Shown one piece after another: positions 9,654-62,899 of a DNA stretch of 64,000 nt. How positions within the stretch are numbered: position 1 is the first letter of the stretch; every line of letters starts with the position of its first letter. The stretch spans positions 124,001 to 188,000 of the forward strand of contig JACVTC010000047.1 of the NCBI GenBank assembly GCA_016946835.1, read 5' to 3'. The notes beneath the pieces were generated by a model that did not search any database, was not told the origin of the DNA, and saw only the letters and a list, made by a program, of their open reading frames with translations. This DNA is from Neocallimastix lanati (nom. inval.) (Eukaryota; Neocallimastigomycota; Neocallimastigomycetes; Neocallimastigales; Neocallimastigaceae). The position numbers were made by a program, and so were the translations under genes.

Positions 9654-12203
9654 TTAATAATAATTACTATAATTATTATTACTATAATTATTATTACTAT
9701 AATTATTATTACTATAGTTATTATTATTATAGTTACTACTATTACTGAATAAGTTACCATTATATGAATTATTTATAGTAGATGAGAATAATGTTGGTTT
9801 AGCAGTTGTCATAGGCATAGCTGAATTTCCGGTTTGGTAATGATAACTTAATAATCCTGATTTATTATTAATTTGACTATATTGGGTGTTGTTTTGACTT
9901 ATTTGAGATCTAACGAAATTACTATTGTAATAGTGTGAACTATTAATACTTCCACTTGAACTCTTGAAAGTACTAACATCTGAGAAAAGATTTTCTTTTC
10001 GAATAGAAATATTATAATATTTACTTCCAAAAATAATAGTTAATGTTGAAATACAGAAACATAAAACTAATGCAGATCTAAGACCAAAAAATAAATATCT
10101 ATTTTGGATATTGATATGTTCAACGATAATGAATAAGCCAATAAGTAAAATATTAATATAGAGTGTAGAAGTTATTGATCTAATATCTTGTTTAAAGGCA
10201 GCAAGATTCCATTCTGCAAATACCAACACACACATAATAACAAGAATGGTTAATTTTAATCCGTACATTATATATTGCATAATTTTTCCAGTAGAACTGA
10301 ATGAACTACAATATTGAAAGTTCTTACCGGCTGTAACCATAAATTTATTTACACCCATTGGATCTAATAAATACCATGTAATATTTAATATTACATCAAT
10401 AATTAAGAAAACTATAAAAACTAACATAAAATGTTCTTTTACAAACTTTGCTATTCCATTCTTACTTGGGAATATAGAAATCATTTTAAGGAAGAATGGT
10501 ATATAAATTAGTGAAAACCCAATTGAGAGAAGGAATGGTCTTATTAAACAATTATAGTCCGTAAGCTTGTGTATACCAGTTAAACAATAACATAAAGCCA
10601 TTAATATACCAAATAAAAATATACACCAGTAACCGTACGTTAAGAAATTGAATTGTTTTCTGAAGCGCTTAATAGATAAGTAGATGTAAGAACAGAATAA
10701 TGAAATTAATGTTAATAAAGTAAACGATAAAATAATAATACTTGCAACAGAATTAACTTCAACATAATGAATTTTTCTGATATCATCAATTTCTTCTAAA
10801 ATTTCCTTAGCAGATTGATTACTTTCATTAAAAATAAATTTTCTTGCTAACTCACGAAATCTCTCAGAATATTGCTCATAATTAACAGATGAACTACTTG
10901 GTCTTACAATACCTTGCATTGAACTAAATTTTGGACAATCAATTTTTTGACAAACTTCGGGATCACTATAGGTAGAATGAATAGCACTTCTAAAATTATT
11001 TGTTATAATATTCTTCTTTTGTTGTTCAAATGAATTAATAAAATTTAAAACTTCAGCAGCAGCTTTTTTTCTTTCCTCACTAATATATCTATTCATAGAT
11101 GTATTACTACCACCAATACATGAGGCAGAAATACCTTCCTTCTTACCAGGAAGTTGATTGAAACTGAGTTCATATTCTTTAGATAAACTATCTCCTATAT
11201 ACCAGAATCTCGCAAAAATATATTTACCAGTAATTAAAGCACCCATCATTAAAATTTCATTGGTTGCAAAATCATCTGAAGTTGAAGCATTTTCTTTAAT
11301 TTTTTTCATTTCTTCAAGAGCAGCTACCGCATTATCACTAGTATATTCTGGAAATTTATCATTTGGTGAATCTCTAAATGAATGAATAAATTCAAGAAGA
11401 GATACCAAACCATTTTCATATTCCGGAAAATGCGCCAAATATTTATGTAATTCAGGATCTAATTGTGATTCTCTTTCATAAATATAATTTGTAGTATTAA
11501 TTAATTCATCCCATGTTTTTGGAATAGTCTGATTATATTTATTCAATAAACTCATATTAGAATATAAACCCCCATAATCTACTGAAAGTGGCTATATTTT
11601 TTTAATATTTTTTTTTTATAAAATTAATAATTGAAAATAATTTAATAATTTAAAAAAGTTTTTAATAGTTAATATTTATATAAAATACTTACTAAACCAA
11701 CAAGCTTCGTATCCACGTAACATGTATTTGTAGCGGTACCATCTTTATAAAGATCTATTACCTTTTTATCAACATATTTATTTAAATCTTCAAAATGCTG
11801 AGCAAAACGTCCAGTATATACAGTATCAGTAAGGTAAAGATCATAACCTTTATCCTTTTTTAATATTATTTGTTCAAGTGCATTAGCTACATGATTGGGA
11901 TCACCTGAACTAGAATCTGGATTTTCAAAAACAGTTTTTAAGGTAATATCCAAATTTTTTGATTTCATATATTCATTTACTGTTTTTTCTAAATTGTTAT
12001 GAAATTCATTTTGAACATACAGAAAACCATGCAATGTAACTTCAATTGCATTAACTATCATTATTATTTTATATACATTTTATATATATTTTATAAACTA
12101 TTAATATTCTAATTTTTAATTTATTTTTAAAAATTTATTTTAGAAATTATATACCTAATCCAATGATAGTTAAAATTATTGTATTTAATAATAACATATT
12201 CAT
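9654..12203 (-). CDS. Class C-type 7TM receptor with extracellular solute-binding domain (receptor 1)
   Basis: Three-exon model on the minus strand: 12203-12155, 12054-11693 and 11591-9654. The introns are GTATAT...TAG and GTAAGT...TAG (100 and 101 bp). The joined frame gives 782 residues. Residues 1-19 form a signal peptide (start at 12203). Residues about 20-400 resemble bacterial family 1 extracellular solute-binding proteins: a conserved VGL-PLSVDYGGLYSN block and a TWDEL motif. A Cys pair (CQKIDC) lies before the membrane part. Residues about 417-661 hold seven hydrophobic helices of the GABA-B/class C type. The tail (662-782) is Ser/Asn/Tyr-rich and ends in repeated NNNYS units. The likely role is a cell-surface sensor for a small ligand, perhaps a sugar or oligosaccharide; the ligand is inference. 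Compared with receptor 2, the SSP motif at the start of helix 2 is missing, so the coupling face has diverged. Confidence 0.85.
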
Positions 12204-13972: not shown

Positions 13973-13986
13973 ATGCTATTTTCATG

Positions 13987-14425
13987 GCCATGTTGGTCCA
14001 GTCGGTTAGGACGATACAGGTCACTGTAGAGGGCGGGGTTCGAATCCTCGGCATGGCACCAAATAATCGGATGAGGTTTCTATCCTGGGATATCATGAGA
14101 CCACACGTGATGTCCATAAGGCTTTCCCTCAAATGATTATTTCACCCATCCCTGATACTACGCTTTGAATTGAAGCATAGACCTTGATGATTGTAAAATT
14201 TCCAATCGCCAATGATTACACCCACTAGGGAGGAGTTAATGGTTCCGTTCTGATGCTCGTGGTCATTAGAGATGTATGTAGGAACGTTAGGAATGCATCT
14301 CCGGGCAGTGTGTAACGACGATTGAGAGCGGCGAAGCTGATACAGTATGCCAATAACTCATCACCTTACAGTTAATTAATAACTGTATGGCCATATGGGA
14401 GATGGGTACCCATATGTGCATGTCT
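13987..14425 (+). mobile_element. tRNA-derived SINE, family 1, copy 1, with 14-bp target duplication
   Basis: The head (13987-14061) folds as a tRNA. It has a 7-bp acceptor stem (GCCATGT with GCATGGC), a D stem GTCC/GGAC, a T stem CGGGG/CCTCG, discriminator A and an encoded CCA. The RNA polymerase III A box (TGGTCCAGTCGG, 13994-14005) and B box (GGTTCGAATCC, 14037-14047) are intact. The anticodon arm is shortened to a 5-bp stem with a 4-base loop (GTCA), so it is not a functional tRNA gene. The 439-bp element is flanked by perfect 14-bp direct repeats, atgctattttcatg (13973-13986 and 14426-14439), and begins exactly at tRNA base 1. This is the signature of LINE-mediated insertion. Confidence 0.92.
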
Positions 14426-14762
14426 ATGCTATTTTCATGTTTTTATATTTAAAACAATTTTTTTTTTAAAAAAAAAAAAGCATATTTGTATTTCATTAAA
14501 TTTATAATATTAAATCTAATTAAATAAATAAAAAAAATAGCAAAATTATTGTTTTTTAATAATAGTAATAATAAAATTATAATAAATATAAATATAAATA
14601 ATATAAAAATAATTTTTTATATTTTAAAGGTGGAAAAAATAGAAAAAATTCAAATTTAAGGTTTCACAAATACTATATAATTCATAAATAAAATTTCTAA
14701 TATATAATATTCATATAAAATAAATTTAAAATCAAAGATAAAAAATTATTATAGAACATATA

Positions 14763-15169
14763 TAATGGGTACCCATCTCCCATTAGTGCCCCAACAGTTA
14801 TTACTGTAGATATGATGATATATGATGTACCAGTACAACGTCGCCGTTCACAACACGAAGTTACCTTTTTTCGTGGAGATGAATTCCTATGCATTCCTAC
14901 ATATATCTCCATTGACCATTAGCATCGGAACTAGAACCATTGACTCCTCTAGTCGGTGTAATCATTGATGTCTTGGAATTTGCCCGTCGTCCAACTCGTA
15001 TAAAATTAGCCTGGGACATCATCAAGGTCTGTGATTAAGTGGTAGTGTATCAGGATTGGGTGAATAAGCAGCCAATAGAAAGCCTTTTGGATTCCACTGT
15101 GGTTGCATGATACCCCAGGATAGAAAACCTCAATGTTTATTTTGTAGTGACCAACTGGACCAACATGAC
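14763..15169 (-). mobile_element. tRNA-derived SINE, family 1, inverted copy with deleted B box
   Basis: The reverse complement begins GTCATGTTGGTCCAG at 15169 and ends gggagatgggtacccatt at 14763, matching both ends of the copies at 13987 and 21357. The middle matches too (ccttgatgat, caatgattacaccgactag, tggtcaatggagatatatgtagga). The part that would carry the anticodon arm and the B box is missing after ttggtcacta, so pol III transcription is unlikely. It lies about 340 bp from copy 1 in opposite orientation, forming a large imperfect inverted repeat. No clear target duplication remains. Confidence 0.85.
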
Positions 15170-18506: not shown

Positions 18507-19304
18507 ATGATTTACAATAACGCAGATTTAAATTATGAATTAGCAAAAAAATTTACCATATATAATTAGATTATGAATTAGCAAAAAAATTTACCATATA
18601 TAATTAGATTATGAATTAGCACACAAATCAAAATAGAACAAATAGAGGAAATGCATAAAGAAAATGAAGATATCCGCAAGCAGACTAAAAAGTGTGAAAT
18701 ATGCTTAGAAAAATTTTCTCTCCTAGATGGCACCAATTATTTTTTAAATTGTAATTGTGTTTTATATAATATATTTTTTGATAATATGGTAAAAGTAGCC
18801 ATAGAGAATAATTATTTACCTTAAAAATAGCCTAATTGAAATACCTCAATCCATCCTAACTATATCATAGACTCAATTAATAATGCAAATCCTGATTTAT
18901 TGAAAAAATATGAAAAATATTCAATTAATAATTTTTTAATGAATAATAATGATGAATTTTCTCCATGTCCTACACCTGGATGTGAATATATATTCTTCTT
19001 TCAACAAGGTGAATTCAATTTTTTATGTCCTATGTGTCATAAACATTATTGTTTAAATTGTAAAGATGAATGGCATAATGGTTTAACATGTCAACAATAT
19101 AAGGATAGTAGAGATGAGAAAAAATTAGATGATCAATTTTTCCAATTTGTTAAAGGAGCTAAATTTAAAATGTGTCCAAAATGTAAATACTGGGTAGAAA
19201 AAACTAGAGGATGTAATCATATGAGATGTAGATGCGGTGCAGATTTTTGCTATTTATGTGGAGACTTTATGAATATGAATACAAATCATACTTGTAGAAG
19301 ATAA
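18507..19304 (+). pseudogene. Broken RBR (RING-IBR-RING) ubiquitin ligase copy
   Basis: This is a paralogue of the intact gene at 25260-26306. The 5' part is damaged. The helical repeat units (DYELAKK) end in stops. RING1 has lost the equivalents of H170 and C173. A run of three stops (TAA, TAG, TGA; about 18822-18838) replaces V189 and the two zinc-binding Cys of the CPNC motif. From about 18853 to past the stop codon the DNA is identical to the other copy, so the IBR and RING2 codons (18900-19304, 134 codons) are intact. An ATG at 18900? is not present; a TTG opens that frame. No full ligase can be made from this locus. A truncated IBR-RING2 product cannot be excluded. Confidence 0.85.
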
Positions 19305-21279: not shown

Positions 21280-21356
21280 TAATATAATTTTATTATTTTT
21301 TACTAATTCGAAAATAAAATGTTCTTGTATATATCAATAAATTTCATATTCTCATT

Positions 21357-21821
21357 GTCATGTTGGTCCAGTCGGTTAGGACGATACAGGTTACTGTAGA
21401 GGGCGGGGTTCGAATCCTCGGAATGGCATCAAATAATCGAATGAGGTTTCTATCCTAGGATATCATGAGACCATATGTGATATTCATAAGGCTTTCCCTC
21501 AAATGATTATTTCACCCAACACTAATACTACGCTTTGAATTGAAGCATAGACCTTGATGATTGTAATATTTCCAACCGCCAATGATTACCCCCACTAGGG
21601 AGGAGTTAATGATTCCGTTCAGATGCTCGTGGTCAATGGAGATATATGTAGGAACGTTAGGAAGGCATCTCCGTGTAGTGTGTAATGACGATTGAGAGCG
21701 GTGAAGCTGTTACAGTATTCCAATAACTCATCATCTTACAGTTAATAAATAACTGTATGGCCATATTGGGAGATGGGTACCCATTATGTGCAAGTCAATT
21801 TTTTTTTTTTTTTTTTTTTTT
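21357..21821 (+). mobile_element. tRNA-derived SINE, family 1, copy 2, with T-tail
   Basis: It is strongly similar to 13987-14425 along its whole length. The A box TGGTCCAGTCGG (21364-21375) and B box GGTTCGAATCC (21407-21417) are intact, and it has the same conserved end (gggagatgggtaccc). It ends in a poly(T) tract. Flanking direct repeats tttcatattctcatt (21342-21356) and tttcatactctcatt (21822-21836) differ at one base, a slightly aged 15-bp target duplication. The acceptor stem has mutated (GTCATGT against GAATGGC). Confidence 0.9.
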
Positions 21822-22918
21822 TTTCATACTCTCATTAAATTGTCCATTATTAATTTTACCATTGTATATGATAAATTATCAATGTATAAAGTTATAGTTG
21901 TTTTTTTTTATTAAATAGTATTACTATAATATTTTTCTTTAGCATGTTTATACACTTATAAATCAAACTTCTGTTATTGATAAAGCAACTGAATTTTTTA
22001 TTTTAAATGCTCAAAAAAACAATTTATTTTTTTTTTCTCAATAAAAATTATTACTTCTGATGTGGATTTTCTTTCCTGTTTATTACTCCAAAATCTACAT
22101 CAAATATCCATTAAAATCACCAGTATCATAAAGAAATTTTATAACCAATAGTATTATTTAAACATTTAAGAAAATTTAAAATTTTGTTTTATTAGATAAA
22201 AGCTAGTCAAGACATGTGCATTTAGAAGGATAAATGAAGCAAGAATAGATTTATAAATAGTTTTATCAAAAAAATTGATTATTTTTTGAAATAATATTTT
22301 CTTCAAAAGAAGGAATATTACATATTTTAATATTATTTATATTAAATCAATTGGGTATTATTAATTTGAAATTTCTTTTTTAATAAATATTTTTTATGGG
22401 TGATCTTACAAAGTAAAAATTTACAATTGTTAGGATTTATATTATTTATACTGTTACAAAAGCTAAATTTTATGTCTAACTCAGAATCCGAACTTGTATT
22501 TAGTTATAAATTAAAACAAGGGAAAATTTCAGATATGGTATACACATATAAAAAAATTTTTAGAAACACAGTACACTTAACATACGCACACACACACACA
22601 CAAAAAAAAAAAAAAAAAGAGAGAGAAATAACTTACTATTATCATATTTTATCATTTTTTTAAATAATAAAGTTAAACATTTTTGAATAACTCTATTTGG
22701 TAATCTTAAAATAATATAAGAAATTAAAATAGACTAGATAATACAAAATAATAAAATTAACATAATTAAATATTGAAAGTGCTTATATTATTATAAAATT
22801 AAAAATATAAATAGTACTAGTTTTTTTTTATTATTATTTCTACCTTAAAGATGTAATTTTTTAATAAAATAAAGAAATAATATTTAATAATATTTAATAA
22901 AAAAAAAAGAAGGAATGT

Positions 22919-24690: not shown

Positions 24691-25259
24691 AAAACTAGTG
24701 GTTAAATATTTATTATTAAATATTATTTTTTTACTAAAAGAATTATTAAAAGAATTGATTGGTTTTTTTATTTTTTTTAGTTTAGAGAATTACTGAATTA
24801 CTGAATTTTTATTTTTAATATTCATTGTTGTACAAAATGGAAAAGTGTTAATAACTTAAAAAATTATAAATTTAATATATACAATTTTTATATTTTTAAT
24901 AATATCCTAATATTGTAAGTAACAATAAGTATGTACAAATTTGAAGCATAGTTAAATACAAGTAAATGTTAAATATAAAACATATTTAAAATTTTATCTT
25001 AATAATTTTACAAATTAGATAGTGGATTAAATATTGATCTGTAGCATTTAATTTGTATAACATTTAATAATACAAAATTTTTATATTGGATTTTAATTAT
25101 ATTAAAAAGGGAATATAAAAAATGGACATAGTTTAATTAATAGAAAATTATATATATAAAGTAAATTTCGTCAAATTTATATCTTATTTCATTACTTAAG
25201 AAAAAGTTCATTTTAAGGAGAAAAAAAAATTTAATAAGAAAAATAAATTTTGATAAAAA

Positions 25260-26306
25260 ATGGTTTACTTTTTTTCAAATAATGAAGAAAAAAATGATAA
25301 AAATAAATATGAAGATGATTTTCTAATTTTCGAGAAATTTAACAAATTAAATTTAGATTATGAATTAGCAAAACAAATTCAAAGAGAAGAATTAGAAGGA
25401 ATACAAAAAGAAAAAGGAAAAGGAAAGGAAGAAGAAAGGGAAAATAAAATAAATTTAGATTATGAATTAGCAAAGCAAATTCAAAGAGAAGAATTAGAAG
25501 GAATACAAAAAGAAAAAGGAAAAGGAAAGGAAGAAGAAAGGGGAAATAAAATAAATTTAGAAAATTTAGATTATGAATTAGCACAACAAATTGAAGTAGA
25601 AGAAATGATAAAAATGAAGTCCAATGAAATATATTTAGATCATGAAGTAGCTAAACAAATCGAAAAAGAAGAAAGAGAAAGAATACATAAGAAGTGCGAA
25701 ATATGTTTAGAAAATTTTTCTCTCCTAGATGGCACCAATTATTTTTTAAATTGTAATTGTGTTATACATAATATATGTTTTGATAATATGATAAGAGTAG
25801 CCATAGAGAGTAATAATTTACCTGTAAAATGTCCTAATTGTAATACCTCAATTCATCCTAACTATATCATAGACTCAATTAATAATGCAAATCCTGATTT
25901 ATTGAAAAAATATGAAAAATATTCAATTAATAATTTTTTAATGAATAATAATGATGAATTTTCTCCATGTCCTACACCTGGATGTGAATATATATTCTTC
26001 TTTCAACAAGGTGAATTCAATTTTTTATGTCCTATGTGTCATAAACATTATTGTTTAAATTGTAAAGATGAATGGCATAATGGTTTAACATGTCAACAAT
26101 ATAAGGATAGTAGAGATGAGAAAAAATTAGATGATCAATTTTTCCAATTTGTTAAAGGAGCTAAATTTAAAATGTGTCCAAAATGTAAATACTGGGTAGA
26201 AAAAACTAGAGGATGTAATCATATGAGATGTAGATGCGGTGCAGATTTTTGCTATTTATGTGGAGACTTTATGAATATGAATACAAATCATACTTGTAGA
26301 AGATAA
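25260..26306 (+). CDS. RBR (RING-IBR-RING2) E3 ubiquitin ligase with tandem MIU-like helices
   Basis: Single-exon 348-residue protein; the ATG at 25260 follows an A-rich leader. Residues 33-138 carry four copies of a D-[YH]-E-[LV]-A-x-Q-I-x-x-E-E helix (starting 33, 67, 104 and 127). This resembles the MIU ubiquitin-binding motif. The first two lie in an exact 34-residue tandem repeat with one substitution. RING1 is C146/C149, C165-x-C167, H170, C173, C191/C194. IBR is C237/C242, C257/C260, C265/C268, H273/C278, with perfect spacing. RING2 is C306/C309, then the catalytic-position Cys C319 in GCNHM, C324/C326, C331/C334, H344/C346. RBR ligases take ubiquitin from an E2 onto the RING2 Cys and then transfer it to substrate. 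The substrate is unknown. Oddity: in RING1 the usual C-x-H-x2-C appears as C-x-C-x2-H. Confidence 0.9.
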   Translation: MVYFFSNNEEKNDKNKYEDDFLIFEKFNKLNLDYELAKQIQREELEGIQKEKGKGKEEERENKINLDYELAKQIQREELEGIQKEKGKGKEEERGNKINLENLDYELAQQIEVEEMIKMKSNEIYLDHEVAKQIEKEERERIHKKCEICLENFSLLDGTNYFLNCNCVIHNICFDNMIRVAIESNNLPVKCPNCNTSIHPNYIIDSINNANPDLLKKYEKYSINNFLMNNNDEFSPCPTPGCEYIFFFQQGEFNFLCPMCHKHYCLNCKDEWHNGLTCQQYKDSRDEKKLDDQFFQFVKGAKFKMCPKCKYWVEKTRGCNHMRCRCGADFCYLCGDFMNMNTNHTCRR

Positions 26307-28188: not shown

Positions 28189-31100
28189 ATGAATAATGCT
28201 TCTTCAAATTTAGAAACTGTTCCTGTTTTGCGACGAGGCCTTCGAAAATACGATATTCTGAATAAGATTTCATTCTTATCTTTTATTAATGATCTTCAAT
28301 TATGGTCTGTTAGTAAACTTTGGGAATTTCATAGTAAGCATATTTCCAATTGCAATGAAATAGTTCATGGAGTTACAAAAAAATACATACCTAATATGGA
28401 AAATTACTTCATTTTAAGGATAAACTATGATAAACCCACTTATTATCTAAATATTTTATTTCTTCTTACTAGATGCCTTCCTATATATAAAATTAATTGG
28501 ATCAAAACCAACGAAATTCGAACTTTCAGTTATGTTAAGAAATTCAACAATAAACTTTCTTCTTTTGAAACTAAATCAATGGTAAAAGATTTTCTTTATA
28601 GTAACATTTACTCACCGTCTACTCAATTCTTCAATCTTTGTGTCAGTTAGAACATTAATGGATGGAATGCTGAAAAATGTAATGGTATTAGATACTTTAA
28701 TGAAATTTTTAAACCCATCTGTATTTGCTTGCAAGAGGTCGGTAATAGCCAATACCTTAATGTACATTCAAATAATTACCCATTTCTTTGTCACTATAAT
28801 ACAATTTTACGAAAAGCTGATCCAAATATACCTGGTATGAAGGGTCTTAGTATAAGTGTTCTTGTTTATTTTCTCCTGATCCTTTTGAATATAAGTATAT
28901 CATTTTTGTCGACATTACTTCTTTTTGGGGAATTAAATGCACTCTTGATAATATTTATGTTCCTACAGTCACTCATAAGGAAGAAAGAAAGAATGCCTTT
29001 CAGAAATTACTAATTGGATTAAGAAACATACTAATAAACCTTCTATTCTTGTAGGTGACTTTAATTTGTCTAAATCCCAATTAGAAAGTTCACTTAATAA
29101 ATTATCTCATCAGTGGTTCACTAAAAACTTATCGGGTCTCGGTTTTACATGGGCTCGGGATGGTAGATCATCTTGTACTGATCATGTTTTATTTAATTGT
29201 AAAATGAAGGAATATATTAATAAGGTATCTGTTTGTAGTACATTCAATGATATTTCTGACCACTTCCCTCTTATCCTTTCCTGTAAAAAAGATGACTCAG
29301 AAGGTTTTCGTGCTCCTACTCCATCTAGAAGATTCAACTTGTCCCAATGATAAGCAAAATGAAATATTCTCAAGTAACTACTTCTCAATTCTTCTTAATG
29401 AATTTGATGATAATTAAGGACTAAGTTCTTATGAAATGGTCAATAAATTTATAGAAATAGCTAATAAAGTTGGTGATAAAGTTCATGCTAGAGTTCCTTG
29501 TGATCTTAAAGGCTCAGCTTTCCACTGCCCTTACTATATCAAGAAACTTTCTCATGAAAAGCATGTTGCATTTAATGAAATCAAAAATTTTTCTTTAGGT
29601 CCTAATCTTGAAAACCTTGATGAATTTTTTAAATTTGCTTCGTGAATATAAAAATATATGTGATAAAGTCAGATCAATTAAGTTTTCTATTAAATTAAAA
29701 CAATTTCATCAGTCGATAGAATCTGTATGTATTGATTTTCGTAATAAAAATGCTAGGAGTGCTTGGTTAAAATTAAAGAAGCTATCTCACCCTATGTACT
29801 CTAATTCTATTTCGTCAAGCGTTTTAAGGACGAGCAGGGTAACTTTTTATTTTCTCATTCGGATCAGTTGAATCGATTTGCTGAACATTATAATGAACTA
29901 GTTTCTGATGCTACTCAACAAAGTCTGGATAATGAATATTGGGTAAATTTATTTGGAACTAATCCTAATAATAATCCTACTTGGAATATTAATGATCCTG
30001 TTACTATGGAAGAAATTCGAAACATTGTGCTTGATATGAAAAATAATAAAGCTCCTGGCCCCGATGGTATTCCGATTAATTTTTTTAAAGCCTTCTTAAG
30101 TAAATCTGATTTATCCGATAATCAAGATGATTCTTCAGTTGTTCATTACTCTAATTGTACTAAATGTTTACTTTCATTATTTAACAAAATCTGGGATGGT
30201 GATTTCCCTGAAGAGTGGAATTCGGCTTCTATAATATCAATTCCAAAAAAAAGAGATCTTTCATATTGCTATAATTATCGTATTTCTCTTATTAATGTTG
30301 GCTTAAAAATTATTTCAAAGATTGGTACTAATAGAATTGCTAAATATGCCTTTGAACATAAATTTGTTAGACTCGAACAATTTGGATTTAGAAATAAAGA
30401 AGAATTCATAAGTTTATATATTTCAGTTAGAAAAATATGTCAAAGAAGAAAATTTCAAGGAAATTTTACTTATCTTGCTTTTCTCGATCTTAAAAAAGCC
30501 TATGATTCAGTATCTATCTTTAATATTTTGACCAAATTATATAACTTAGGAATTAGAGGTAAATGTCATTTGTTTTTAAAGAATCTTTATCTATTCTCTA
30601 AAGCTCGTGCTTTTTTTAATGGTAATCTCTCAGAAGAATTTTCGATTAATCGTGGTGTTAGACAAGGATGCCCTCTATCTCCTATTTTATTCAATTTGTT
30701 CATTGATGATGTACTGGATAATTGTGATAAGTATGGTGTATAATTAGATTCTCAATATTTTTGTGGTGGACATTTTGCGGATGATATTGTTTTAGTTGCT
30801 CCATCTAAACAAGCTCTTAAGAAAATTTTGAATGAAGTTCATGAATGGGTTATTAAAAATGAAATGAATTTTGGAATTAATAAATGTGTTACTCTTGTTG
30901 TATAACCGATTAACTTTGTTAAACCGATAAATTATGAAAATCCATCTTTCTTTATTGGTAGTAACAAATTACCTAAAACTGACATCTATACTTATCTTGG
31001 TATTCCTTTTAATGAATCTTTATCATTGAAATCTATACAATCCAAATTAAACAGTAATTTAAATGTAAAGTTAAATTCCTACTTTCGATTTCTTATTAAT

Positions 31101-32313
31101 AAATCTATTCCTCTCCCATTGAAGAAATATGTTTTAATTTCGATTATTCTTAGTCTTGTTATATATTATGCTCCTCTCTTTTGTTCAAATAAGAGAAGAT
31201 GTTCTAAAGCTCAAAAAATTATTAATAGAGGACTTTATTAGAGAAATGGATTTAAATCTCGCAATTCTTATGTTAGTCTCTATGATATTATTCTTGAATT
31301 AATAATACCTCCTCTTTCAGTGCTATATCTCAATTACGCTGATTTAGAAAATTGAAAAATTCATCATGTATTATTAATCATCTCACTAATAATATTCCTA
31401 TTATGTCACATTACTTATGGACTAAAGAATGAAGGACTTTGGATAAGAAATTAAATGGTAAAAAAACAAGAAAAATAAAAAGTTTTATTGGGAAAGAAAT
31501 GTTTTCAAAATCTCAAAAGCTAAAAAAGCAATTATTTCAAGGAGAATTATTTTGGATTTATTTCAGAAATCAAAAACTTAACATTTCAATATCCTAAGTA
31601 TCAGTTGGGATTCTTTTGGATTTCTCGAATTAGGTGTGGTTTTAAATTTGACATTAGTATTTCCATTAAAAGAAAAATCGTCTCAGAAGATTGCCCTAAA
31701 TGTTGCCCTTGTTGTGGTGTTAGTGTACCTAGTTTTTTTCTCACTGGATCTTTGCCTGTAAAGTATAGGAAAATTACAGAAATAAATCTTTACCTTTTCT
31801 AGATGATCTCTTTTTGAAGTTTGCAATGATAATTGAACAAAAATCCTTGGATGTTTCTTTAGATTCATAAAAGGATTATGATAATAAGATTTATTACTTT
31901 ATATTGAGTACTCTTTCTGGTGGGCATTCAATATATGAAAAAATTAAAGTTAACGATGGGGAACAAAGACAATTAATTGACAATATTTTTAAACAAAGTT
32001 CAACTTCGTCGATTGTTCCGTTTTTTGTGGGGATTGCGGAGTTTCTAACAAACGTAATACCTTTAATTTGTCGATCTTTTAGATTGATGATGAAATGATA
32101 TTCCGTTGAATCTATTGAATCTATTGAATCTACCGTTGCTAAGAGCGTCGACGTCGAAATGATAAGACATGGATTTTCACCTCCCGGTGAAAAAACTAAT
32201 ACAGATTCGTTAGATAATACTAATACTGAAATTATTACTCGCAATAATGGACGTGGTGTTATCATCGATGAATGGGAAAAGTTAGAGGCTATTGCTTCTA
32301 ACACACTTTTATA
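28189..32313 (+). pseudogene. Non-LTR retrotransposon (LINE) ORF with APE endonuclease, RT and Zn-knuckle, degenerate
   Basis: In order: an N-terminal segment without known domain (28189-28647), then an APE-type endonuclease and a reverse transcriptase. The endonuclease has SIN/NINGW at 28651, CLQEV near 28725, VGDFN near 29056 and ISDHFP near 29257. The RT has APGPDGIP near 30052, FGFR, LDLKKAYDSV near 30488, RGVRQGCPLSP near 30655 and FADDIV at 30776. A CCHC-like knuckle follows (CPKCCPCC near 31692). Then comes a C-terminal module containing FVGIAEFLTNVIPLI and GVIIDEWEKLEAI, ending at TAA 32311. Breaks include TAG at 28648, TAA at 30741 and 30903, TAG at 31239, and several frameshifts in the endonuclease and downstream of the knuckle, so this copy is dead. 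The domain order matches APE-class LINEs that insert by target-primed reverse transcription. Related tails lie at 26930, 32440, 46450 and 49935. Confidence 0.9.
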
Positions 32314-32439
32314 ATTTTATAATATATAATATTTTATTTCATGTATTTTTTTTTCATTAAAATCATGTAATTTTATTAATATTATAAATTAAAAAAAGTT
32401 TTCTCTAAGTTTAAAAAAAAAAATTTATATCCTAAATAG

Positions 32440-32925
32440 AATTTAGGCAACAATTCATTCAATTCGTTGATGAAATTTTAATTAATTTTTCTGATATTGT
32501 TAATGAGAAATCTTTGGACATTCCTGATGACATAGAGGAAGATTTTTATGATAATATTAATTTTTATATACTATGTCTCCTTCTTGGAGGAAATGATGTA
32601 TATAAAATTTTAAAGAACGGTTCTAAGGAAAAAAGCCATTTTATTAATAGCATATTTCAATCATCTTCGAGAGAATCTCCTTTCCAGATTTCTTATTTTG
32701 TGGGTATTCCTTACTAATGTTTTTCCTATTGTGATTAGAGATTTTTACACTACGATCAATTTGTATACTATAAAGGCTAACGTTATCAAGAGCATCAATG
32801 CTAATTTAATAAGGTAAAGAAGAAATTCTGAAAGATGATTATTTTTACCCATATGGAATAATCATCAATTAATGGGAAGAGTTTGATGCCATTTCGTCCT
32901 TGAAACTCATAAGGTAGTTTTTTAA
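32440..32925 (+). pseudogene. Second copy of the LINE C-terminal module
   Basis: The translated stretch EKSLDI, LLLGGNDVYKI, then SIFQSSSRESPF, YFVGI, IKSINANLIR and GIIIN-x-WEEFDAIS follows the same order as the preceding module at about 31840-32313 (EQKSLDV, LSGGHSIYEKI, NIFKQSS, FFVGIAEF, AKSVDVEMIR, GVIIDEWEKLEAI). It has at least three stops. It is a tail of another LINE copy lying head-to-tail behind the first, or a tandem duplication of the 3' end. Confidence 0.7.
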
Positions 32926-40100: not shown

Positions 40101-41005
40101 TTTAAAAATCAAAATTCTTTTTTTATTTAAGGAGATAAAAAAATTATTTCGTTATGATTAATAACAAAATATGAAGCATTTTGTTTGATATAAAATTTCT
40201 GATACAAAATAAAATTATTATAAATAAAATTTTTAATATATAAATAATGCTTTATATTATAATATTGATATATTTTATTAATTTAAAAATCAAAGTTCTT
40301 TTTTTATTTAAGGAGAAAAAAAAATTATATCATTATGATTAATAACATAAAAATAAAATATGAAGCATTTTGCTTTATATAAAATTTCTGATACATAATA
40401 AAATTATTAAAAATAAAATTTTTAATATATAAATAATACTTTATATTATAATATTGATATACTTTATTAATTTAAAAATCAAAGTTTTTTTTTTTTCATA
40501 TAAGAAGATAAAAAATAAAATTTTTAATATATAAATAATGCTTTATAAGAAGATAAAAAATAAAATTTTTAATATTTAAATAATGCTTTATATTATAATA
40601 TTGATATATTTTATTAATTTAAAAATCAAAGTTCTTTTTTCATTTAAGGAGATAAAAAAATTATATCATTATGATTAGTAATATAAAAATAAAATATGAA
40701 GCATTTTGCTTGATATAAATTTCTGATACATAATAAAATTATTAAAAATAAAATTTTTAATATATAAATAATGCTTTATATTATAATATTGATATATTTT
40801 ATTAATTTAAAAATCAAAGTTTTTTTTTCATATAAGAAGATAAAAAAAATTATATTATTATGATTAACATAAAAATAAAATATGAATCATGTTTACTTAT
40901 TAATTTATAATTTCTAATATATATAATAAAAATATTAAAAATAAAATTTTAATATAAAAATAATGCTTTATATTATAATATTGATATATTTTATTTATTA
41001 AAATA
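40101..41005. repeat. Tandem repeat array, period ~185 bp, about 5 copies
   Basis: The word tttaaaaatcaaa marks unit starts at 40101, 40282, 40471, 40618 and 40806 (spacing 181, 189, 147 and 188). Each unit then carries a poly(T) run, aaggag or agaag, an attatatcattatgatta block, a tatgaagcattttgctt block in most units, and ends with ataatgctttatattataatattgat. The third unit is shortened and carries a small internal duplication. No open frame is present. Confidence 0.8.
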
Positions 41006-42894: not shown

Positions 42895-45821
42895 ATGAAA
42901 ATGAATATAATACCATTATTTTCAATTACATTTTTATTATGTAAGATAAATAGCTATTAATTTATATAAATATAATTTTTAATTTTTCATAATATGAAAT
43001 TTATTAATAAACATATATTTATGTTCTAATTATTAATTTTAAATTATTATAAAAAAAAGTTTTAAAAATACAGGCTGAAGTAGTAAAAGTATGTATTTGG
43101 AAAAGATATAGTTACTTGAATGAAACTATTAAAGCTAATTTTAATAATGTAAATTCAAATCCTGGTGTACAACTTGAATTTATAGTACCAGATTCTGATT
43201 TTAATGCTATTGAAAGAGTTACTTCAACTACTTGTGATATTGCCATGATTGACCCTTTCTGGGCTTTAAGTAATGGTGGTAATATGATTCCTTTTTCTTA
43301 TGATAATGATATATTGGAAAGAGTAAAGGAAGATGGAGAAATATATTCCGGATTAATGGAAGATATTACAGTTTATGATGAAAATAAAAATAAAGAAATA
43401 TATGGTTTGGTGGGTTTTTTTTTTTTTTTTTTTTTTTTTAAATATTAAATTATATATAGTTTTAAATTTTTAAAATAAAAATAATATTAATAAAAATAAA
43501 ATTTATATTTAATAAAATTTATATAGCCATTTTTCTTAGATTTTGGAATAATATATACTAATCAAGCAAAAGCTAACAATGTACCAACAACTTATGAAGA
43601 TTTAATTAATATATCAAGCACTTTGCAAATCGATTCAACTTTTGGTAGAACAGCAAAATATGCTTGTCATTTTAATGGTATTTTTTTTTATTAATAGAGA
43701 AACTAAAAATAAAATTCATATTCTAGAAGTTATAAAAACTAATAATTAAATAAATATAATACTTATAAATAGATCATAGAGGATACTATTACAATTTTGT
43801 AGAAGCTGTTGCTAATTTTAGTAATAATGAAAATTTTACATTATATGGTGATGAAGCTGGAGAAGCAATAAAAAATTTTGTTAAACTTTTTGAGAATGAA
43901 ATATTTAATGGTTAGTAAGCTAAATAATTTAATAGTTAAAAAAAAATAATAATAAAAAAAGCAATAATAATTAGTAATAAGAAAAAAAAAATTTTTTTTT
44001 TTATTAAAAGAATTGATAATTAATTATTAATAATTTACAATTTATTTTTTTAAATTAATAAATTTATATATATTAAAAATAATAAAATTATATAATTATA
44101 TATATAATAATTAATAATATAAATAATTTTGAAATAAAGAAAAGGAATGGAATAGTGATGCAGATCTATTAAAAGATGGTTTCTGTAGAGGCGATATTAT
44201 TTATATGAAAAATTGGGTTTCTTATGATAGTACTCTTAAGGATTGTGGTATAAATTACTCAAAAACAAGAGTACTTAAGTCAGGTACTTTAAAAGGGGAC
44301 AGTAAAGCACTAGCAAGAGCTGTATATTTAGCAATACTTAAAAGAAGTAATACTAAATCAACTGATCTTTTAGTTCAAGTAATAAAAGATTTAACATCAA
44401 AAAAGTTTATAGAATCTCTTGTAAATAATATTAATTATAAAGAAATTCCACCATATCTTGATGTATATAATAATGCTGTACAAACTGAATATTGTACTAG
44501 AGTTGATTGTAATTTATATACCTCAATTATCAATAATCTTTATGTTTCACATATTGCTAAGTTCAGTAGAGACGATGGAGTAACAAATAAACATTTTTCA
44601 GATATATTTTCTGACAGTTATGAACATTATATTAAAGAAATATATAAAACTAAGAAAAATGAAGCCGATAAAGCAAAGGATGGTTTAAGTAATTATTTTG
44701 AAAATAAGTATGTTAAATGGACAGACATACCAGCAATTATTATAGGTGGTATATCTGTTGTTGGTATTATTATTACACTTGTAGTCTTTTTCATTACTGT
44801 TAAAAATAGAAATGCTTTAGTTATACGTAGATCATCACCTCTTTTCTTATACTTTATGCTTATTGGTATTCTGATTGCGTTTGGTTCTGTAATTACCTAT
44901 ATTGGTAAACCAAACGAAATAATATGTACTGTTAGACCAGTCGTTATTGTGCTTGCTTTCGGTCTATCATTCTTAGCATTATTTGTTAAGACATTCAGAA
45001 TTAAAGTTATTTTTGATAAATCTGATATAAAAGTTCAAGATAAATATTTATTACTTTACAGTGGAAGCATCCTTTTATTGGAACTTATCATTGTTGGTGC
45101 ATGGACTTTTCTTGATAGAATGAAGCCAGTAATTAGATATATAGGCACAAAGATGCATTATTATACATGTAGTAATGTTGGAAAATATGGTACTTATTTC
45201 CAATATGCTTTACTTGTTATTAATGCCATTATTCTTTTATATGGTTGTTATTTAGCTATTAAGGTTAAAGATGTCTATTCAGATTACAATGAATCTAAAG
45301 TTATTGGTTTATCTATTTATGGTATTATGATTTGTATGATTATTCAACTTATTATATCTGCAGTTGATTCTCTTGGTCATTCAGTTATATTTATTATACA
45401 ATCATTAATGATTATTTTATCATCTGTTATTCTCTTAACGTTTATGTTCATACCAAAATTTTGGAAATTACATATGACAGGTTCATCTCAAACTCCAAGT
45501 TCTCAACCATCCTCTCAAAGACCAAGCAATAATCAAAATAATTCCTACTCTACAAAATCTGAAAAGAATGGATATATCAATATGCAAAACGTTGAAAATG
45601 ACTATTATAACAATATGGCTCAAAGAAATAATTATTATAATAATATGAATGGATCATCAGAATCTCTCAATAATGGTTATTATAATAATAATAATAGCAA
45701 TAATTTTAATAATTTTAACGGTAACAATTATAATAATAGTGGTAGTTATAATAGTAATAACAATTCATTTGCTTACAGAAACAATGTTGCTCCTGAAGCA
45801 TATGTTCAATATAATTATTAA
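42895..45821 (+). CDS. Class C-type 7TM receptor with extracellular solute-binding domain (receptor 2)
   Basis: Five-exon model: 42895-42940, 43081-43409, 43527-43677, 43773-43910 and 44140-45821. All introns begin GT and end AG, and the joined frame is exactly 782 codons (781 residues). Exon 1 encodes a signal peptide. Residues up to about 400 form a family 1 solute-binding-type domain (GL-PFFLDFGIIYTN, TTYEDL), with a Cys pair CTRVDC before the membrane part. Residues about 418-663 are seven helices with class C hallmarks: RRSSPLFLYF at helix 2, CTVRP at helix 3, KTFRI after it, and a final FIPKFW. The tail is Asn/Ser/Tyr-rich. It is presumably a G-protein-coupled surface sensor; the ligand is unknown. 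Introns 1 and 2 match receptor 1 in position and phase. Oddity: the exon 2 acceptor must be the AG at 43079-43080; the stronger-looking cag at 43071-43073 would break the frame. Confidence 0.88.
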
Positions 45822-46016: not shown

Positions 46017-46449
46017 AAAAAAAAATTTTTAAATTAATTTCATTATTTATAAATTATTTTTTATTTTATTTTTACCATATTATTATAAAAAAAAAAAAAA
46101 TTTTTTTTACTTTTAAAAAAAATATTTTCTTATATTATTATTTATTATGTATAATGTCATTAATAAGAAAATAAAATAAATAAAAAATAACAAAACAAAA
46201 ATAAACAAACAAACAAAAAAAATATATATATATATATATATATATTATAAACAAAATTTAAAAAAAATAAAATATTAAAAAAAAAAAAATAAAATAAAAT
46301 AATTTTTTTTATTAAATTTCGATTTAAAATAAGAGAAATTAATCTACAATTTCATTAATAAGAGTACAAATACTATTTATTATTATTTATTATTATTACT
46401 TTGAAAAAAAAAAAATAAATATTATCATCGTATTGAAAAATGTACAACT

Positions 46450-47930
46450 ATGGTTACAAAACCAATGAACTTCCAATCTCCTCCAAATTATAGTGACCCA
46501 ATCTTCTATCCAAAAGTTTCTAGTAATATTTATCTAGATATTCCTTTTTCAGATGATCTCTTATTAAAACACATTTTATCTCACATGCATTTTAAATTTA
46601 GTTAGAAAATCCCTTCTTTCATTTACACGTTTCTTTTCTAATAAACTTTTTCCTATTAAATACAAGAAAAAAGTTCTTCAATCCTTTGTTATTAGTAAAG
46701 ATATTTATTATTCTCCTCTACTTGGTTCAAACAAATCTAGAACGGTTAGAACCTAAACATTAATTAATACTGATCTATTTTGGTGTATCGGCTCCTTCTC
46801 TAAAAATGGTAAAACAAATTCAGAAAACAACGACTATATAAGACATAATTCTACTATGAGTACTTATGCTTTATCTTGAGATCTAAGCATCCCTCCTATT
46901 GCTGGTATCTGCGCAGCCTTACAGATTAAATCGTTTGCAAAATGGTGTAAATCAAACTGTATTATAAAGGATTTTATTAAATCTATTCCCAAAATGCCTT
47001 ATTATTTCCTGGACTAAAGAATCTAGAACTTTGTACAAAAAAAATAAAAAAATATTATAAATGTGTAAAATATGACGATATTTTAGAACGTTATTGGAAA
47101 TCAATTTCCAAATTTCAAGGTATTAAAGGTTAAAACTACGATAGTAACAAGTTCTCAAATAATAAAGCTTAGCTTAAAATATCCCCAATTCAACTTAGGG
47201 TTTTAGTGGATTATACGTTTACACTGTGGTTATAAATATAATACTATCATTGCTATTAGAATGGGTAAGTTTCAGAAGATTGTCCCAAGACTTGCCACTG
47301 TTGTGGCGAAGATAATCAATCTTTTGAACATTAGATTTTTAAATGCAATGCTCTTGCATCTTTTAGATGGAATTCTTTAAATTTCATAGATGAGCTCTAT
47401 GCTTTGTTCACTAAGAAGATTAGAATGTTTATTCATTTTTCTTCCTATGACTCTATTTCTAATTCTGATGATTATATATATACTTGTTCTTTCTTGGTGG
47501 AATTTTAGCTATAAATGATTACATTTCGATAGTGGGGAACTGAGACAATTAAATGAACTACTTTTCAAAGGTTCATCTAAGTCTCCTGTTCCAAAAATTG
47601 TGGGCTTGGCGGAATTCTTAACTAGCCCAATACCTATCATAAGTAGTTCGTTTGAGCTATTATTTGATAGGTATTCCAAAATACCAAACTTAACTAAGAG
47701 CGTCGACGTCGTACTGATAAGGCATAATAATAATACAGGATCACCATCTGTTTCTACGAAGGGTGAATCTCGCTTTATTTGTTCATTAAATGATGAATCC
47801 GAGGAGAGTTTAGTGGACACCACACTATTTATTTTAAAGATGTTTCTTCTAGGTTTTATTATTTTTTTATTTGTTAGGAAGGGAAAATTCCTGCATAGTA
47901 CAACTTGCCGAAATACAAAGTATTTTTGAG
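46450..47930 (+). pseudogene. LINE 3' part (post-RT region, Zn-knuckle, C-terminal module), degenerate
   Basis: Shifting frames align with the second half of the LINE at 28189-32313. KYKKKVLQSFVISKDIYYSPLLGSN (here cut into pieces) near 46660 matches the LKKYVLISIILSL/IYYAPLFCSN stretch. SEDCPKTCHCC...H near 47275 matches the knuckle. VGLAEFLTSPIPIISSSF near 47598 and KSVDVVLIRH near 47697 match the C-terminal module. There are many stops. The RT catalytic blocks are absent, so this is a 5'-truncated copy, as is typical for LINE insertions. It is followed, after a poly(A) run at 48059-48084, by the duplicated segment that also follows the first LINE. Confidence 0.75.
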
Positions 47931-48362
47931 CTTTTTTATTTTGTATTTTTTTAACTTTTATTTTTATTTTTAATTTCAAATGTACTTTTCACCTACATGT
48001 ATTTTTTTATATAATAAAATTAATAAATTTATGGAAGTGTATTCTCTTCCCTATCTATAAAAAAAAAAAAAAAAAAAAAAAAAATTATTATTATAATTAT
48101 TTATTAATATAGAACTTTTAACAGTTTAAAAATTATTAATATAAAAAAATTTTTTTTATTCTTTCAAATAAAATAGTTAATGTTTAAATGTCTTTAAAAT
48201 ATATATTTTTTTTATATATATTATTATCGATTTAGTTTTTTTGTTTTTTTATTTTATTTTATTCTTTTAAATACAATATATAGTAATTGTAAATACAATA
48301 AATAGTAATTGTTTAAATATTTTTTAAAAAATATATATTTTTTTATATATTATTACCGATTT

Positions 48363-52015: not shown

Positions 52016-52685
52016 GAAGATTAAAATTTTGAAAGCAGGTTCATGTATTTATTGTTTTATTTTTTAATTTTTTTTTATTTAATTCTTTTTAAACACCATA
52101 CTATCTAATTTACCGATATTACTACTTCGTTTTATTTTATTTAATATTTTTTGGATGAAATAATTTCACTTCGCATCATTGCCATGATTATTTCAAAAAT
52201 TTTATTATATTTTTATTAATATTAACATTAATTTTATTTGTTTTAAAATTTTATTTTTAAAAACTTTATTGTATCTTAATTATTTTTATATAATTATTTT
52301 TATATATTTGTTTTATGATATTTATAAAATATTTTTAATATACCATTTAATTAGTATATTAATAGTTTTAATAATTAATAAATAAAGCAATAGTAGTTCC
52401 ATTCACTTAAGTAAAAATAATAATAATATTATTATTAAAATTTTATCTTTTATTAAACAAACTTTCTCTTATTTAAAAATATATATTTATATTTATAGTA
52501 TAATTAATCAAATTAATGATATAGCAATATACATTGACAAATATACAATATTTTAATATAATAAAAAAAAAATAATAATAATAATAATAATAATAATTAA
52601 TAGTATTTGTTGTGTAATAGATTAATTTTTATACAATGATAATAATAAAAATTGAAAATTATTGTGTAATTTAGATAGAAGTATA

Positions 52686-53106
52686 GTCATCCAGTTCTTA
52701 TCCTGGGTTGTTAAGTCGTTGGCTTATCATACCAAAGGTCTCTGGATCGACCCCCACAAGTATCATATCTTCACGATTTTTCCCTTTGGGTTTTGCGTGA
52801 AAGGTTAGGGGATAAACGATACTCAGGTATACTTTCAAAGTTTTCTATATTTCTAACACTATAAGAATCCCATTGCGTAAGCCTTGTCTGAGAGGATTTA
52901 CAGTGTCCAGCTCCTCTGGGATGGCAAGGACGCCACCTATAGTTGGCTCTGCTTTCCCTCGAGGATCGCGTAGGGTGCTTCTATATGGAGTTTCTTTGCT
53001 TATGGGGAGTTGAGAGCGTCGACGCCGTACCGGTATGGCAGTTAATTATACACCCATATTACTATATGGGGAAGACCAAAGTCTTCAGTCTATAAAAAAA
53101 AAAAAA
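52686..53106 (+). mobile_element. tRNA-derived SINE, family 2, with perfect 15-bp target duplication
   Basis: A 421-bp G/C-richer island ending in a poly(A) tail (about 53093-53106). It is flanked by exact repeats ttagatagaagtata at 52671-52685 and 53107-53121, the mark of a recent LINE-driven insertion. The head has an A-box-like ggttgttaagtcgttggc (52711-52728) and a B-box-like ggatcgacccc. The interval around the would-be anticodon (atCATaccaaAGGTC) looks by eye most like elongator tRNA-Met. Near the 3' end it carries AGAGCGTCGACG (53013-53024), a word also found in two LINE tails. A diverged relative is at 8511-9110. Confidence 0.88.
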
Positions 53107-53121
53107 TTAGATAGAAGTATA

Positions 53122-55471: not shown

Positions 55472-62899
<7,428 letters not shown>

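Follow-up and report, generated by a model that had tools for sequence, protein, structure and literature searches.

We found that the G/C-rich motif AGAGCGTCGACG is the 5' half of a hairpin in the sense RNA of both L1-like LINEs and SINEs, and that the palindrome CGTCGACG is a by-product of two adjoining GUCG strands. The palindrome belongs to an RNA hairpin of 27-30 nt, interrupted by an internal loop, that occurs in five LINE families (A to E) and three SINE types (SINE1 to SINE3). The hairpin with its compensatory changes, the origin of the palindrome and the (A)GTCTA with which several of these elements end go beyond what the original prediction saw. We consider it probable that the hairpin, together with the terminal (A)GTCTA of LINEs A, B and C and the SINEs, is a tag for the choice of template RNA by the LINE protein, and that the SINEs carry this tag and are copied by a partner LINE.

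In the window, by which we mean the whole 64,000-nucleotide stretch of DNA analysed (G+C 17.8%), AGAGCGTCGACG occurs exactly, as originally claimed, at 32142-32153, 47697-47708 and 53013-53024, all on the + strand. The relatives of the motif claimed for family-1 SINEs are also there, as a form with two mismatches in the SINE at 14325 and as a minus-strand form at 14823-14849, close to where it had been placed. The 8-mer palindrome was said to be unexpected by chance in DNA of this composition; the window holds three copies, against none in 100 dinucleotide shuffles. The match between SINE2 and the LINE at 47697 does extend past AGAGCGTCGACG as far as GGCA, and its ungapped block scores 48.4 bits, a value equalled by none of 300 shuffles (best shuffle 33.5). 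SINE2 against the window's LINE B gives 34.1 bits (0 of 300 shuffles equal, best 32.2). For the family-1 SINE, likeness to LINE A in primary sequence is not significant (21.3 bits, matched by 131 of 300 shuffles), and its match to SINE2 scores 37.9 bits, equalled by none of 300 shuffles, but with a best shuffle of 37.2. The family-1 SINE joins the group because of its SINE2 match and the shared fold, not because of primary sequence shared with LINE A.

Across the genome (199,045,447 bases in 762 contigs), the 12-mer AGAGCGTCGACG has 1,272 copies, 627 forward and 645 reverse, while the control, the same 12-mer read backwards, has none. The first 30 of these places, which all come from contig 1 and may not represent all 1,272, comprise 20 in LINE A, 3 in LINE B, 5 in LINE C and 2 in SINE2; the motif was thus not common at unrelated loci, with 0 of the 30 outside these LINE and SINE families. 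The core pattern had no copies in the viral or prokaryote sequence collections, and the LINE reverse transcriptase had none in viral contigs. The analysis set consisted of 90 loci and the window, whose relevant features are as follows; bit scores are those of a covariance model built from seven aligned versions of the hairpin.

13976-13986 and 14429-14439: direct repeats CTATTTTCATG of SINE1 copy a
13987..14428, + strand: SINE1 copy a, with a tRNA-like head at 13987-14061 (ARAGORN) and the 3' end GTCTATG
14326..14352, + strand: core hairpin of SINE1a (36.4 bits; a row of the model)
14823..14849, - strand: core hairpin of SINE1b, a diverged copy (32.4 bits; a row of the model)
21696..21722, + strand: core hairpin of SINE1c, element 21347-21822 (29.0 bits, outside the model rows; SINE match)
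29805..32420, + strand: decayed LINE B copy, a reverse transcriptase frame (RVT_1, 4.5e-21) and a C-terminal part with tail (tblastn with the L017 ORF, 63.9% over 288)
32143..32169, + strand: core hairpin in the LINE B ORF (38.7 bits, outside the model rows)
32439..32832, + strand: LINE C tail fragment adjoining LINE B (tblastn with the L014 ORF, 73% and 55%)
32790..32816, + strand: LINE C core hairpin, decayed (12.1 bits, E 0.73; a weak match taken alone, in a fitting place)
46432..48084, + strand: decayed LINE A copy with its 3' end at an A run, 48061-48084 (tblastn with the L011 ORF, 61.7% over 447 aa)
47698..47724, + strand: core hairpin in the LINE A ORF, coding for SVDVVLIRH in the frame taken from relatives (41.8 bits; a row of the model)
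48033..48058, + strand: LINE A 3' end, GGAAG...CTTCC and then CTATCTAT (CTGTCTA in relatives)
52671..52685, + strand: left target-site duplication TTAGATAGAAGTATA of SINE2, an exact 15-bp repeat of 53107-53121
52686..53106, + strand: SINE2 copy (family 2), 5' end GTCATCC and A tail 53094-53106, with ends as in other full-length SINE2 copies
53014..53040, + strand: SINE2 core hairpin GAGCGTCGACGCCGTACCGGTATGGCA (42.7 bits; a row of the model)
53071..53086, + strand: SINE2 3'-terminal hairpin GAAGAC-CAAA-GTCTTC, read from the sequence, parallel to GGAAG...CTTCC of LINE A
53087..53092, + strand: SINE2 terminal AGTCTA, of the (A)GTCTA kind common to LINE and SINE 3' ends
53107..53121, + strand: right target-site duplication of SINE2, repeating 52671-52685

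The seven versions align without gaps and have a common fold, with an outer stem at 5-8/23-26 and an inner stem at 11-14/18-21. The pattern is GAGC-GNCG-A(C/A)-GYYG-loop-YRRU-A-NRNC-A, that is, outer stem, internal loop, inner stem and a loop that is 3 or 6 nt long. In the seven-row alignment 92.9% of the cells are paired, against 20-45% with slid partners, and in a larger alignment of 15 matches (11 distinct rows), which was fitted to the fold and leans towards it, the figures are 90.9% and 19-47%; the fold is favoured over its slid versions in such counts because it was derived from these same sequences. The covariation score lay above all 500 shuffles in both alignments. Three pairs of the seven-row alignment are changed on both sides, a count not beyond that of shuffles (52 of 500 as good with 7 rows, 174 of 500 with 11), and further pair types do not stand out either (11 of 500 shuffles with 7 rows, 355 of 500 with 11). 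The double changes include a U-A pair in LINEs A, B and C that becomes C-G in SINE2 and SINE3, and two stacked pairs that are exchanged between LINE A and LINEs D and E despite changed amino acids.

RNAalifold, with the stems not supplied, recovers the same stems except for pair 8-23, which does not form in the LINEs. No single sequence clearly outfolds its own shuffles. Taken alone, SINE2 has a different hairpin as its minimum-energy fold, as does SINE1b, and LINE E keeps the inner stem with different outer pairing, while the minimum-energy fold of LINE D, a family found later by the covariance model, is this hairpin. Two alternatives were rejected for weaker covariation, namely the hairpin GCCGUA-CCGG-UAUGGC and the short fold GCG-UCGA-CGC; the latter has 95.2% of its cells paired, but 85.7% remain so after a slide of +3. 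The MAFFT alignment A2, which places the D/E gap outside the loop, was not used for any of the counts.

Within the window the covariance model finds seven sites, six at E values of at most 1.1e-5 and the decayed LINE C site at 0.73; four of them are rows of the model, and those of LINE B, SINE1c and the LINE C remnant are new. The search of 87 of the 91 sources (all except L009, L022, L031 and L061) gave 104 matches, of which the weak new ones were inspected (L016 at 2575, L026 at 263), and yielded two more LINE families, D (E 0.0067) and E (E 0.0054).

Judged by its sequence matches, the reverse transcriptase of the window LINEs is L1-like: the best PDB matches, at 2.1e-25 to 1.4e-24, are to L1 ORF2p, and R2 comes next at 7.8e-10. 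Candidate APE endonuclease motifs, GDFN and SDH, share a 269-aa open frame at L055; these motifs and the core were not seen together in a single copy. The LINE protein search scored 127 of 2,989 candidates; many of the 127 have a single open frame some 1366-1415 aa long, so the LINE families look young. In LINEs A, B and C the core lies in the same frame, inside the ORF and before its stop; across the LINE families it codes for (K/R)SV(D/N)(V/A). The distance to the stop is 24-66 codons in L003, L014, L017 and L030, among others, and differs in some decayed copies. LINEs D and E carry the hairpin at the matching place in LINE-like sequence (RSVNAENAVRQ and KSVNAEETVRQ), where the inner stem is GCUG/CAGU and the loop has 6 nt rather than 3, equal to one extra codon. 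The D and E copies examined are decayed; in each of them a stop stands 16-20 codons above the hairpin. The codon in which this stop falls differs between two D copies (TAA in L016, TGA in L011), which makes decay a likelier cause than an ORF that ends there, and in D and E, too, the hairpin would then lie inside the ORF.

The coding sequence at the core is conserved in its letters. Among LINEs A, B and C, ten successive third codon positions agree there, compared with 30% of the 233 aligned codons overall, and a run of ten was reached in 11 of 20,000 permutations. For A versus C alone, over 508 codons, such a run is not unusual (2,497 of 20,000 permutations). Third positions are identical even where the amino acids differ (GTA/GAA/GTA, CTG/ATG/ACG), and the core uses codons that are rare in the LINE ORFs (AGC 9 of 198, GTC 4 of 78); with the codon use of four copies pooled, AAG AGC GTC GAC GTC has a product frequency of 4.8e-6. 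When the codons are swapped at random for synonymous ones, as many pairs survive in 23-55% of trials, and this test thus gives no support for selection on pairing. LINE pair counts alone therefore do not demonstrate selection, and what is conserved is the letters, unpaired ones included, not merely the pairing.

The SINEs carry the core in their 3' part and keep no long frame there. The best-scoring copies within SINE2, and those within SINE1, are nearly identical. SINE2 identity is 94-100% among the best 40 of 397 candidates, a choice of best-scoring copies in which older ones are therefore under-represented; the full-length copies start with GTCATCC, end in an A run and have target-site duplications read by eye (32 listed, two of them 5'-truncated). 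The best-scoring SINE1 copies are 98-100% identical, also with target-site duplications read by eye, and 29 of the 30 listed have the 3' end GCAAGTCTATG, the window copy having GCATGTCTATG. SINE3 is known from a single copy, beside the SINE1 copy at L066. ARAGORN reports a tRNA-like head in SINE1; three SINE2 loci and the SINE3 part of L066 gave no such head. After the 3' end, SINE1 copies (L061-L090) have a T run or directly the duplication, and SINE2 and the LINEs have A runs. The SINE2 copy at L055 is inserted beside a sequence, GTTCGATTCCCGGTT, that by eye resembles a tRNA T arm.

Directly before the tail, LINEs A, B and C and SINEs 1, 2 and 3 share a terminal (A)GTCTA of 5-6 nt; L017 ends AGTCCA, L012, a short LINE B copy, lacks the usual 3' end ahead of its A run, and three copies of LINE D lack the terminal AGTCTA and end in GCGGCT or similar. 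From the start of the core to the terminal GTCT there are 74 nt in SINE2, 94 in SINE1, 110 in SINE3, 213 in LINE C, 264 in LINE B and 351-384 in copies of LINE A. The common block of at least 25 nt that the original prediction asked for does exist, at 27-30 nt, in the SINE 3' part and the LINE ORF. Its spacing to the 3' end is not constant, as had also been asked for, but ranges from that of SINE2 to that of the LINE A copies.

The likeness between particular LINEs and SINEs suggests partners. The SINE3 hairpin differs from that of LINE B at 3 positions, from LINE A and LINE C at 5 each and from SINE2 at 3. That of SINE2 is equally distant from LINE A (4) and LINE C (4), and the GGAAG-N7-TCTTC ahead of its terminal GTCTA, as in LINE A, favours LINE A as partner. 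The inner stem of SINE1 is that of LINEs D and E, and its whole hairpin is only slightly nearer to D (6 differences) than to SINE3 (7) or E (7). On these sequence comparisons the scheme appears best for SINE3 and LINE B and weakest for SINE1; it is only suggestive because SINE2 ties between A and C and because LINE D, with the SINE1-like inner stem, ends differently. We advance only tentatively, as rather doubtful in its full form, the idea that the tag lies in the LINE's own coding sequence, with a stem and loop peculiar to each LINE family and a matching version in each SINE family.

A host factor for RNA export, stability or ribosome docking could bind the hairpin in LINE and SINE RNAs in place of the LINE protein. 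Alu gains access to the L1 protein via host SRP proteins, which is a precedent, and the LINE hairpin precedes the stop codon, where ribosome-linked events could matter. We nevertheless think such a factor unlikely, since a single one would leave unexplained the likeness of SINE3 to LINE B and of the SINE1 inner stem to that of D and E (matches with few sites behind them), and no Rfam family reaches its gathering threshold within the window. The Rfam result also bears on the block being a self-cleaving ribozyme or other known RNA; ribozymes are frequent in retrotransposons, but this block lies inside an ORF, near the 3' end, and we hold the idea to be extremely improbable. That CGTCGACG might be a DNA site, such as a protein-binding or promoter element, rather than an RNA element would accord with a perfect 8-bp palindrome that is unexpected by chance in the window. 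SINE1, SINE1b and LINEs D and E have no palindrome yet retain most of the stem pairs, so we rejected the palindrome as the functional unit and regard a DNA site as very unlikely.

The block in the SINEs might instead be baggage, a piece of LINE ORF caught by template switching, with the LINEs sharing (K/R)SV(D/N)(V/A) for protein reasons. Pieces of LINE that start at the motif or within 2 nt of it do exist (L012 and L015), the amino acids are partly conserved, and much of the pairing would survive synonymous recoding anyway. Set against this are the third positions that stay unchanged across amino-acid changes, the rare G/C-ending codons that are kept, the paired positions that change together between families and the similar place of the block in three SINE types, and on balance we find baggage a distinctly unlikely account. 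LINE pieces that start this close to the motif make up 2 of 28 LINE loci, L015 (counted as LINE A) being a 53-nt piece inside another LINE, and a D copy (L051) does the same; truncation or template switching may be favoured at the hairpin, which we offer as a lead only.

The shared elements lie in the sense-strand 3' part of both RNAs. Given the analogy with stringent LINE/SINE pairs (PMC3747384, PMC5135761), template choice by the LINE protein is the simplest reading. The LINE protein would read the hairpin in the sense RNA and thereby pick its template, the same stretch doubling as LINE coding sequence, and SINEs bearing the hairpin, which copying would require, would be copied by their partner LINE. 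The location of the tag in the ORF may, speculatively, tie an RNA to the protein newly made from that RNA.

The system is of a known kind, that of the stringent LINE/SINE pairs, and is unusual in having its hairpin in the ORF. In such pairs, described for eel UnaL2, zebrafish ZfL2 and SART1, a 3' RNA stem-loop and 3'-end sequence are common to LINE and SINE, as here, and recruitment of the LINE by its SINE is attributed to this stem-loop (PMC3747384, PMC5135761); their stem-loop is in the LINE 3' UTR, whereas here it lies in the ORF, 213-384 nt before the terminal GTCT of LINEs C, B and A. Plant L1-clade LINE/SINE pairs likewise have an L1-like reverse transcriptase, poly(A) and a conserved hairpin with compensatory changes, but their hairpin is described within the 3'-end sequence (PMC3747384). 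Human L1 has predicted stem-loops at the end of ORF2, as here, but in the account given in PMC5135761 these are not described as shared with Alu or matched to a partner, and their function is left open. Among fungi, Tad1 is reported to have a 3' stem-loop shared between LINE and SINE (PMC5135761) and SINEs are described in Aspergillus (PMC5063351), whereas the LINE here is L1-like, and these fungal systems are likened to ours by description, not by sequence.

The SINE central domains (V, CORE and Deu) are similar in being a short conserved hairpin block in otherwise dissimilar SINEs. We know of no case of such a domain inside a LINE ORF, and the likeness is again one of description rather than sequence. 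The V-domain has a conserved stem-loop (PMC5135761). Among the matches listed by our literature search, outside which most subscription journals lie, nothing dealt with SINEs of anaerobic fungi or with a hairpin common to a SINE and a LINE ORF.

How an L1-type protein chooses RNA beyond poly(A) is described as an open question (PMC5135761), and an element of 27-30 nt that LINE and SINE of an L1-like lineage have in common, with natural compensatory variants, offers a direct test of RNA choice. If the proposed tag is real, it would clearly exemplify an RNA signal within a reverse transcriptase gene that is followed by its parasites, and a LINE could not drop the tag without altering its own protein, so that these parasites would be hard to escape.

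The window holds several other features. Open frames of 651 and 635 aa lie at 58747-60702 and 60992-62899 (+), with no Pfam match at 0.001. Frames with a 7tm_3 receptor domain are at 9654-11591 (-) and 44133-45821 (+), the first also having a bacterial-type solute-binding domain, a combination that, with the base composition, suggests an anaerobic gut fungus as the source; two IBR-domain frames at 18840-19304 and 25257-26306 (+) are each followed by AAT-type repeats. An A/T-rich repeat array occupies 40209-41003; its longest copies are 178 nt, and they are spaced 147-189 nt from start to start.
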